A stretch of DNA of 64,000 nt from positions 54,585 to 118,584 of the forward strand of contig SVLN01000001.1 of assembly GCA_015067925.1 (NCBI GenBank). Direction: 5' to 3'. Positions 47,939-51,112 of this stretch are shown here, in pieces. Source of the DNA: Oscillospiraceae bacterium (GTDB lineage: Bacteria; Bacillota; Clostridia; Oscillospirales; Oscillospiraceae). The notes beneath the pieces are model-generated. The model was not told where the DNA came from. It was given only the letters and a program-made list of their open reading frames with translations, and did not search any database. The translations under genes were made by a program, and so were the position numbers. How positions within the stretch are numbered: position 1 is the first letter of the stretch; each line of letters starts with the position of its first letter.

Positions 47939-48176
47939 TGGTTCTCTCTTTCTTTTCTTGGTTCTTACCAATTCTATCATAGTGATTTTTTTCCATTCGT
48001 CAAGGGAGATTATCTAAATCGAAAACTCCCCTATCGTACACGCCTTGTAAAAGCTTTGCAGGATCTTTACGCAAAACAACAAGGTTTTACAATGATTTTA
48101 CTTGCTTTTGTCTTACCAAAAACATTCCTCTGTTATGCTTGTACCACAAAAACCCAAATACAAGAGGAGCTTCAAT

Positions 48177-49952
48177 ATGGACTTATTTGATGTTTTGAAA
48201 TTAATCGGCGGACTCTGTCTGTTCCTGTTTGGCATGAACCTGATGGGCGCTGCATTGGAAAAGCGTGCCGGTCACAGTCTAAATGCCATTCTTGGCAAAT
48301 TCATCACCGGTAAGATCGCCGGTTTCCTAACCGGTCTCGGTGTTACCTCCATCATCCAGTCTTCCTCCGCTACGACGGTCATGGTGGTCGGTTTTGTCAA
48401 TTCCGGTATTATGACGCTCCGTCAGGCCATCAATGTGATTATGGGTGCGAATGTTGGCACCACCGTCACCGCCTGGCTTCTGAGTCTGACCGGTATTGAA
48501 AGCGGGAACCTGTTTGTTCAGATGCTCAAGCCCACTTCCTTTACCCCCATTCTTGCCTTAATCGGCACTGTCCTTTATATGATGCCCAATGCAGACAGCA
48601 AAAAGAAGGATACTGCGCACATCCTTCTGGGATTTGCTACACTGATGTTCGGCATGGACATTATGTCCGGCTCCGTTGCCGGTCTGAAGGATGTGGAAGC
48701 ATTCCGCAACATTCTGATTATGTTCTCCAACCCCATCCTGGGCGTTCTGGCCGGTGCAGTATTGACCGCAATGATCCAGTCCTCCTCTGCCTCGGTGGGT
48801 ATTCTGCAGGCACTTTCCTCCACCGGACAGATCACCATGGGTGCGGCAATCCCCATCATCATGGGCCAGAACATCGGCACCTGCGTGACTGCCCTGATAT
48901 CCTCTATTGGAACCAACCGAAATGCACGGCGCGCCTCCCTGGTGCATCTTTGCTTTAATATCATTGGCACTGCGCTTCTTCTGTGCCTCTTCTGTGCAGC
49001 CAGGGCCCTGTTTGATCTCTCCGCCTTTGTGGGCAGTGAGGCCAATGAGATGACCATCGCAGTTGCACACTCTGTTTTCAATATTCTGTGCACAATCATC
49101 CTTCTCCCGGCATCCGGCCTTCTGGAAAAGCTTTCCTACAAGCTGATTCCGGAGCCGAAAAACACGGACTCTGTACCCAAGGATGTACCGCACCTGGACG
49201 AGCGCATGATGGCAACTCCTTCCATTGCTCTGGAGCAGTGCCGTCACGCCACCCACGAAATGGCCGATATTGCCTTTTCCTCTCTGCACAATGCATTGTC
49301 TCTTTACGATGCTTATGATAACACCGTCGCAACCTCCATTCACCAGAAGGAAGAACTGGTCGACCGGTATGAAGACATGCTGGGATCCTATCTGGTTAAG
49401 CTCAACACCTATTCCCTCAGCGATGAGGACAGCCACGAATCCACAAAGCTTTTGCACATGATCGGTGATTTGGAACGTCTTTCCGACCACGCGGTCAATG
49501 TCTTAGAATCCATGCAGGAGTTGCAGCAAAAGGGCGTACGCTTCACGCAGCAGGCCGACCGTCAGCTCCGGGCCATGATGTCCGCCGTCAGCGAAACGCT
49601 GGAACTGACGCAGCACGCTTACGAACAGAACGATCTGCAGATTACCTCACAGGTCGAACCTTTGGAGCAGATTGCCAATGTATTGAAAGATCAGCTCCGC
49701 GCGCAGCATATTCTGCGTATGCAGCGGGGTGAGTGTTCCGTGGAAGCAGGATTTATCTGGTCAGATCTTTTAACCAATCTGGAGCGAATTTCCGACCATT
49801 GCTCCAACATTGCAGGCTGTGTGATCGAAATGGCTCACGAGAAGCTGGATCTTCATGATTATCTGAAGACCGTAAAGGCAAACAGCCCCGAATTTGCCGA
49901 AATCTACGGTTCATATGCAAAAAAGTATCTGCACGATGCCGCAGGTCTATAA
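48177..49952 (+). CDS. Na/Pi cotransporter family protein with C-terminal PhoU-like domain
   Basis: GLCLFLFGMNLMGAALEKRAG, repeated QSSSATTVMVVGFVNSG/QSSSASVGILQAL; PhoU-like helices. Confidence 0.94.
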   Translation: MDLFDVLKLIGGLCLFLFGMNLMGAALEKRAGHSLNAILGKFITGKIAGFLTGLGVTSIIQSSSATTVMVVGFVNSGIMTLRQAINVIMGANVGTTVTAWLLSLTGIESGNLFVQMLKPTSFTPILALIGTVLYMMPNADSKKKDTAHILLGFATLMFGMDIMSGSVAGLKDVEAFRNILIMFSNPILGVLAGAVLTAMIQSSSASVGILQALSSTGQITMGAAIPIIMGQNIGTCVTALISSIGTNRNARRASLVHLCFNIIGTALLLCLFCAARALFDLSAFVGSEANEMTIAVAHSVFNILCTIILLPASGLLEKLSYKLIPEPKNTDSVPKDVPHLDERMMATPSIALEQCRHATHEMADIAFSSLHNALSLYDAYDNTVATSIHQKEELVDRYEDMLGSYLVKLNTYSLSDEDSHESTKLLHMIGDLERLSDHAVNVLESMQELQQKGVRFTQQADRQLRAMMSAVSETLELTQHAYEQNDLQITSQVEPLEQIANVLKDQLRAQHILRMQRGECSVEAGFIWSDLLTNLERISDHCSNIAGCVIEMAHEKLDLHDYLKTVKANSPEFAEIYGSYAKKYLHDAAGL

Positions 49953-49960
49953 AAACGAAA

Positions 49961-50169
49961 GGGTACTGCCGAGGCAGTACCCTGAGACTGTCAAAAAACT
50001 ATGGTGAGGTCTTCCGCAATAGAGCAGCGGGGGAAGGGAGAAGGGGGCAAAAAGCCCCCTTCGCGTATGATCAAACAGGTTTTCAAAACATTTGACAATG
50101 TTTTGAAAACCGCACAGCGTGTCGAAAACACTTTTTCGACACGCTGAGGGTACTGCCGAGGCAGTACCC
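49961..50169. repeat. Compound palindromic element (MITE/REP-like) flanked by identical 22-bp palindromes
   Basis: gggtactgccgaggcagtaccc at 49961-49982 and 50148-50169; internal hairpins 50040-50062, 50078-50111 (15-bp perfect stem) and 50115-50146 (14-bp perfect stem). Confidence 0.8.
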
Positions 50170-50173
50170 TTTT

Positions 50174-51112
50174 TTATTCTGTAATCGGTTTTCCATTTAG
50201 CCAGAGAACGGAAGGGTCGAAGTTCTTCAAATCCTTCACTCCGGTACACGCCATCAGGCGGGCAAGCTCATCATTCATGCCCGTCACATAGTCGATGACG
50301 CCCTGCGCGCCGTCCTTGCCAAGGGGCTGCATCAGCGCGCGGCCCACGGCCACAGCGTCCGCGCCCAAAGCCAAAGCCTTGTAAGCATCTGCGCCGGTAT
50401 CCATGCTGCAGTCCACAAAGACCTTCATCTTCCCTTCTGCAGCCTCCAGGATCCGCGGCAGGATCATAACAGGCGGCACAGCATAGCTCAGTCTTCCGTG
50501 ATGGTGACTCACAACGATGCCTCCCACCCCACATTCTGCGGATTTTCTTGCATCCTGTACACTCAGGATGCCCTTCATAATAAACGGTAGGCGAGTGCTC
50601 TGCACCAGATCAGCCACATCGTCCATGCTGTATTTTGACATTTTTTCGCCGTGGACCACATCAAACTTTCCGCCCTTGGTGAAAACATGGTCAATATCAA
50701 TGCCCACAGCCAAAGCGCCCAGATCCTCGGCACACGCAATTTGATCCTTCAGCTTCTGCCGATCTGCCAGGGGCTTCATAATGCGAACCGTCGGAGCGCC
50801 CACTTCCATGATACGACAGAACTCCTCGTTCTCACTCATGCCGACCCAGTTCACAGCCCCCAGGGCCTTAGCTGCGCGTGCATATTCCGTCATGCCGTCC
50901 GCGCGGTCGCGGAGAAACAAATGCAAATGGGAAAAAGCCGGCATCATAACAGGCGTTCGAAACAGCTTTCCAAAGAGTTCCATTGTAAGATCCGGCGTCA
51001 CAGAGTCAATCAAACGCTGCTCGATCAAAATGGATTCCAGATACTCCCGGGTGATTTTGCTGGCATCACCGGGCCGCACGGGCATCTGCATCGGTCTTTT
51101 TTCTTCTGCCAT
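50174..51112 (-). CDS. FMN-dependent alpha-hydroxy-acid oxidizing protein
   Basis: PFIMKGILSVQDARKSAECGVGGIVVSHHHGR, VFVDCSMDTGADAYKALALGADAVAVGRALM. Confidence 0.9.
   Translation of the reverse strand: MAEEKRPMQMPVRPGDASKITREYLESILIEQRLIDSVTPDLTMELFGKLFRTPVMMPAFSHLHLFLRDRADGMTEYARAAKALGAVNWVGMSENEEFCRIMEVGAPTVRIMKPLADRQKLKDQIACAEDLGALAVGIDIDHVFTKGGKFDVVHGEKMSKYSMDDVADLVQSTRLPFIMKGILSVQDARKSAECGVGGIVVSHHHGRLSYAVPPVMILPRILEAAEGKMKVFVDCSMDTGADAYKALALGADAVAVGRALMQPLGKDGAQGVIDYVTGMNDELARLMACTGVKDLKNFDPSVLWLNGKPITE

Follow-up and report, generated by a model that had tools for sequence, protein, structure and literature searches.

A 163-bp MITE with IS1182-family ends very probably duplicated the terminator hairpin shared by two convergent genes in an Oscillospiraceae bacterium

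The closest described relatives of the insertion reported here act on hairpins by removing them: IS1272 replaces its target hairpin (PMC5678879) and TnSha1 causes a partial deletion of it (PMC4923244). In the former study, the duplication of a whole stem-loop was drawn as pathway b of a cruciform model (PMC5678879). As far as the IS1182 family in general is concerned, PMC7335449 gives 2–60 bp as the length of the direct repeats recorded in ISfinder, and some members target palindromes according to work cited in PMC5678879. Hairpin targeting is already known for IS1182 relatives, and hairpin duplication was earlier just a drawn model; in the openly readable literature we found no terminator-duplicating MITEs or insertion sequences (IS) beyond the IS1272 and TnSha1 papers.

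The locus described here lies in a stretch of 64,000 nucleotides from an Oscillospiraceae bacterium (the window, to which all coordinates refer). As the first-pass annotation had proposed, it is placed between convergent genes, namely a Na/Pi symporter gene with a PhoU-like C-terminal part (48102–49952, plus strand; NF037997 above cut-off) and a gene resembling FMN-dependent alpha-hydroxy-acid dehydrogenases of the L-lactate dehydrogenase/oxidase superfamily (50174–51112, minus strand; below family cut-offs). The palindromes and all the hairpins listed in that annotation are present where it had placed them. The exact repeat at the two edges is real and slightly longer than the 22 bp originally given, since a 24-bp sequence, AGGGTACTGCCGAGGCAGTACCCT, corresponding to a whole terminator hairpin, is found at 49960–49983 and again at 50147–50170 (neither with an assigned strand), where it is followed by a T-run and is terminator-like for the plus-strand gene. 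We read the two copies as the left and right target-site duplication of the element that they enclose.

This element spans 163 bp (49984–50146, plus strand; GAGACTGTCAAAAAAC ... CTTTTTCGACACGCTG) and has no ORF of its own; its boundaries were taken from the alignment of 91 copies and from the unit repeated in the same genome and in relatives. The left terminal inverted repeat (TIR), GAGACTGTCAAAAAAC (49984–49999, plus strand), fits the IS1182-type TIR CAG[ACT]CTGTC[AG]AAAAAG and is imperfectly matched by its right counterpart CAGCGTGTCGAAAAAG. The three further hairpins noticed earlier between the palindromes were all found, on the plus strand: hairpin 1, with a 9-bp stem, GAAGGGGGC-AAAAA-GCCCCCTTC (50040–50062; ssDNA fold, conserved region in A3), hairpin 2, with a perfect 15-bp stem, GGTTTTCAAAACATT-TGAC-AATGTTTTGAAAACC (50078–50111; paired in 88 copies), and the right-end hairpin, with a perfect 14-bp stem, CAGCGTGTCGAAAA-CACT-TTTTCGACACGCTG (50115–50146; covariation over 14 pairs), in which an inverted copy of the right TIR stands before the TIR itself. 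As ssDNA, the element folds at -48 kcal/mol, compared to -18.4 ± 2.8 for dinucleotide shuffles (z = -10.6), the folded span being 49985–50147, one base inward of the element start. Being short (163 bp), multicopy, devoid of a transposase ORF, and provided with TIRs and a target-site duplication, the element has the characters of a MITE. The feature is, very probably, a single insertion of this 163-bp MITE with IS1182-family ends and a hairpin-defined duplication, presumably served by an IS1182-type transposase in trans. Judged from the sequence, the anatomy of the element and the hairpin duplication can be held with high confidence, and what was duplicated at 49960–50170 is the predicted bidirectional terminator shared by the two convergent genes.

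The genome that contains the window (1.58 Mb in 62 contigs, 78% complete) was searched for copies, and the search returned eight full or partial ones with 84–100% identity, together with one diverged copy (contig C37, locus L026). With the exception of the query itself, the matches start and end inside palindromes; the copies are thus alike only between the palindromes, which places the latter outside the repeated unit. Reading of the flanks revealed that every copy except L008 has its own hairpin on both sides, as exemplified by AAAGCACCTGAACGGGTCTCGTTCAGGTGCTTTT at L003, AAACAGCCTTCCGGAAGGAAGGCTGTTT at L004, AAAGCCAATCGCAAAAGCGATTGGCTTT at L006 and AACAGCCACCCTTTCGGGTGGCTGTTT at L007, and a duplication of the hairpin was seen in seven of the eight copies (L001–L005, L007 and L006). 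Since each copy is bordered by a different hairpin of its own, the identical palindromes of our locus represent a target-site duplication of the local terminator and not element ends; their earlier reading as conserved ends does not hold, as they differ from locus to locus. The diverged ninth copy (L026:1400–1650) has another right end and a near-identical hairpin on both sides (AAAGGCTCCCGCATAGAATGATGCGGGAG).

When 301 genomes of the same family, from 106 genera, were sampled, the element turned up in 45 genomes and 25 genera, in numbers ranging from one to more than 40 per element-bearing relative; three genomes of a single genus have more than 40 matches each. It sits at unrelated loci with no conserved neighbourhood. 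From the regions fetched around the copies, a profile search extracted 91 distinct ones, 84 of which have both flanks and were used for comparing the end of the left flank with the start of the right one; a score of at least 12 was counted as a duplicated hairpin, random flank pairings having a 99th percentile of 6.5 and a largest value among 300 of 15. The same hairpin was present on both sides in 51 of the 84 copies (39 direct, 10 with an inverted loop and 2 ambiguous), so that the target duplications searched for are indeed there, and their length varies with that of the hairpin, to which it is equal. Scores of 12–15 are the weakest and unsafe singly, while the exact cases are safe: 23 MITE copies show exact direct duplications of 20–38 bp, 18 of them touching both element ends without any gap. 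A run of four T was observed at an outer foot in 22 of the 39 direct cases, which suggests that not every target need be a terminator. The remaining 33 copies do not show a duplicated hairpin, and some copies are located in loops or elsewhere, with duplications of 2–8 bp (L170, L135, L179). With several copies in its own genome, homologues in relatives and conserved hairpins, the element is not the kind of single, unconserved structure that would speak against mobility, and its mobility stands.

Some flanks depart from simple repetition. At L002, L005, L165, L153 and L183 the loop is inverted between the flanking hairpin copies, exactly so at L002. Inverted loops were considered as the main signature of the insertion chemistry and discarded, the full exact match being limited to one of ten cases (L002), against 23 direct ones, and essentially none being found in IS; because only L002 is a full exact inversion, a later inversion of the loop is likelier. 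At L139:1036–1197 and L013:1502–1662 the outer target arms differ between the two copies, yet in either copy they complement each other, which gives the impression of a re-palindromised target (at L139, ...CACCGACTGGG/CCCAGTCGGTG... in one copy vs. AAAACGACTGGG/CCCAGTCGTTTT in the other). Simple duplication followed by point mutation does not explain these arms; a fold-back mechanism, with one arm copied while the element inserts, would be one way to account for them. Other interiors were also encountered with the palindromic right end (CAGCGTGTCGAAAA...TTTTCGACACGCTG), or it stood nearly alone, often beside hairpins (L011, L079, L085, L088, L122, L129, L131, L134); these are candidates for further MITE subfamilies, perhaps of very short elements.

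The internal hairpins co-vary across genera, in line with the covariation proposed as a check of the element. Hairpin 2 was found in 88 copies, whose left arms are of 48 different sequences; out of 1312 stem positions, canonical pairing holds at 1302 (1269 Watson–Crick and 33 G–T), a proportion inflated by a search that takes the best stem per copy (shuffles reached at most 9, with an observed minimum of 10 and a median of 15). The palindrome at the right end, made of the right TIR and its own inverted copy, has a covariation score above those of all 500 shuffles, a control weakened by the relatedness of the copies. Such covariation, along with the predicted location of the element within both convergent transcripts, is what would be expected of a structured RNA or 3′-UTR regulatory element whose hairpins are kept for a host function, mobility being secondary. 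We consider this improbable. The Rfam comparison gave no match near any gathering score (best 11–22 bits vs. 39–500), so the structured RNA suggested earlier finds no counterpart there; the element occurs at unrelated loci whose neighbourhood is not conserved; and at the right end, palindrome and terminal repeat are one and the same. Moreover, the low share of G–T pairs (33 of 1302 canonical positions) fits conservation as DNA palindromes better than conservation as RNA. Within our preferred reading, that of a MITE insertion, any role of the internal hairpins can be proposed with low confidence only.

The element ends in sequences of the CAGNCTGTC(A/G)AAAAA type, which agree with the ends of autonomous IS1182-family IS of related Clostridia. 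Searches with NF033551 (IS1182 transposase) identified intact genes in related genomes, with ends resembling those of the MITE: CAGCCTGTCGAAAAAG at L091 and L092, CAGTCTGTCAAAGAAC at L034 and TAGACTGTCGAAAAAG at L094, in the genus of the high-copy genomes, where the contig breaks off within the gene. With NF033551 (cut-off 270), the proteins of L091 and L092 reach 380–393 bits, and they carry the Pfam domains DDE_Tnp_1_6 and DUF772. The motif CAG[ACT]CTGTC[AG]AAAAA is common to IS and MITE, which share only the outer 13–15 bp. An IS1634-type parent with long variable duplications was considered and rejected, as the IS that carry matching ends are scored as IS1182 members and reach only 20.7 bits for IS1634.

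Several of the visible IS1182-type IS ends adjoin a hairpin directly. Four IS1182-type transposases were aligned, and a single scan of GTDB genomes with them yielded 80 IS loci, mostly in Clostridia and including the complete genomes of Claveliimonas bilis and Chakrabartyella piscis. Both flanks and both TIRs were available at 49 loci, and 32 of these show a duplication of the whole hairpin, 20–38 bp long and exact in most cases; the IS end was picked among nearby TIR-like starts for the best duplication, a choice that slightly favours duplications yet cannot create exact matches of 20–38 bp. Most of the IS ends lie 0–1 base from the foot of the hairpin stem. No duplicated hairpin was seen at the other 17 loci, most of which adjoin two different hairpins. 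Two ends abutting two different hairpins were recorded for the IS1182-family loci L250, L256, L266, L267, L272, L273, L290, L291, L306 and L314, an arrangement that suggests recombination between IS copies.

No IS1182 transposase was found in the genome of the window, represented by a 78%-complete assembly. Multicopy IS tend to break assemblies. With no such gene in the genome itself, we infer that an IS1182-type DDE transposase mobilises the MITE in trans, a proposal that the shared ends would support and that we hold with moderate confidence. The dense palindromes of an intergenic repeat between convergent genes could also suggest a palindromic repeat of the REP/BIME type, ending in the palindromes and dispersed by a RAYT (Y1 tyrosine transposase), and Y1_Tnp genes do occur in four of five genomes tested. 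However, no Y1_Tnp match was obtained in the element's own genome, in which a search for a REP-associated tyrosine transposase had been advised, the TIRs match a DDE IS family, and the palindromes differ between copies, which refutes this explanation as to the ends. In addition, 51 of 84 copies here have a duplicated hairpin, whereas RAYT-linked repeats are not known for duplications of this kind. We regard a RAYT origin as highly improbable; of the proposal of a non-autonomous mobile repeat, multicopy and with homologues in relatives, the part that stands is thus the MITE type and not the REP/BIME type.

Insertion of the MITE into a single hairpin can also be compared with sites that lack it. 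The only other genome of the same genus (G001) has no element, and the intergenic part next to the orthologous gene end is unalignable; similarly, in orthologous gene pairs of the genus g120 the intergenic regions are too diverged for alignment, several having one terminator and no element. A high-copy palindromic repeat of g120, GTAGGGGCG(G/C)ATTNTATAT(C/G)CGCCC, is itself a target of the MITE (L158, L159, L160, L163, L169, L219). Across the fetched loci, this repeat (GTAGGGGCG...CGCCC) appears as one hairpin 35 times, a few of these occurrences being left flanks of filled sites, vs. two hairpins in the MITE-filled L158, L161 and L164; where paralogues of such palindromic targets are uninterrupted, they thus have one hairpin and not two. 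A second palindromic repeat (GTTATAAAAGGG...CCCTTTTATAAC) is targeted by the MITE as well, which has inserted in its loop or close to it, with duplications of 2–3 bp (L162, L167, L170, L171, L195); the insertions at L167 and L170 are in the loop, an uninterrupted copy is present in L162, and the duplication there is just 2 bp. That the repeat entered between two independent tandem terminators already in place is hardly credible, even if convergent genes often have two terminators, given the exact identity over 20–38 bp in 23 MITE cases and most of the 32 IS cases at unrelated loci and the single hairpin of uninterrupted paralogous targets.

In DDE transposition, the 3′ ends of the element are attached to the target at two positions that are staggered, and the stretch between them is duplicated when the gaps are repaired. 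For the MITE insertion we propose that an IS1182-type transposase, supplied in trans, would recognise a hairpin-forming target, often a rho-independent terminator, and that the two 3′ ends would join at the 5′ feet of the hairpin, one per strand, after which gap repair would copy the whole hairpin. Joining at the 5′ feet on both strands would duplicate the whole hairpin at any length. Both the strand chemistry of joining and the notion that the transposase recognises a hairpin or cruciform rather than a duplex palindrome are presumed here from the duplications. As far as sequence comparison goes, the data on the MITE and on the clostridial branch of IS1182 to which it is assigned fit pathway b, the duplication of the whole stem-loop. 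A further idea, to which we give limited credence, is that DNA structure is read in both partners, the transposase finding its target by the hairpin and the MITE hairpins being conserved since folded ssDNA or a cruciform of the element itself is recognised in transposition.

Termination at the locus seems to have been preserved. On the plus strand, the terminator scan found a complete terminator only at the right copy (stem 50146–50171, then a T-rich tail), and on the minus strand, of the two flanking copies, only at the left one (49983–49960, then TTCGTTTTT); the inner side of each flanking copy has no U-tract, and the U-tract of the left copy serves the minus-strand gene only. Because each outer copy retains one U-tract, transcripts of either gene would be expected to cross the element and end at the hairpin copy on its other side, which would make the insertion nearly harmless. 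Hairpin 2 passes the scan on the minus strand as well (50111–50078), and some minus-strand transcripts might stop inside it.

These insertions are numerous natural cases in which the target duplication left by a DDE transposase follows the extent of a hairpin and not a fixed stagger, and hairpin-length duplication can account for the odd direct repeats of 2–60 bp recorded in the IS1182 family. They show how an element can spread through terminators with termination intact on both sides, and how transposon targets can be set by the shape of DNA, not its sequence. For the annotation of MITEs and terminators in gut Clostridia, it follows that twin hairpins around intergenic repeats can be insertion footprints and not conserved ends.

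Compared to the known systems, the staphylococcal IS1272 and TnSha1 (PMC5678879, PMC4923244) share with the present insertions the IS1182-family DDE transposase and a hairpin target, often a terminator, with no primary sequence consensus, but they remove the hairpin wholly or in part, without duplicating the target, whereas here the hairpin is kept and duplicated. The IS1182 family as catalogued has the same transposase family, variable repeat length and palindromic targets; here, however, the variable repeat is an entire hairpin bounded at the stem feet (32 IS and 51 MITE insertions), and the family gains a MITE with several covarying hairpins. The SPRITE, RUP and BOX repeats of pneumococcus (PMC3049150, PMC10969869) are also short, non-autonomous and intergenic, some of them terminator-like, and we found no duplication of a target terminator described for them. 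Finally, REP/BIME repeats and the IS that insert into REPs resemble the present case in using palindromes as targets or components (PMC1525189), but REP-targeting IS recognise a conserved repeat sequence (PMC1525189), whereas here any hairpin seems to serve, irrespective of its sequence.
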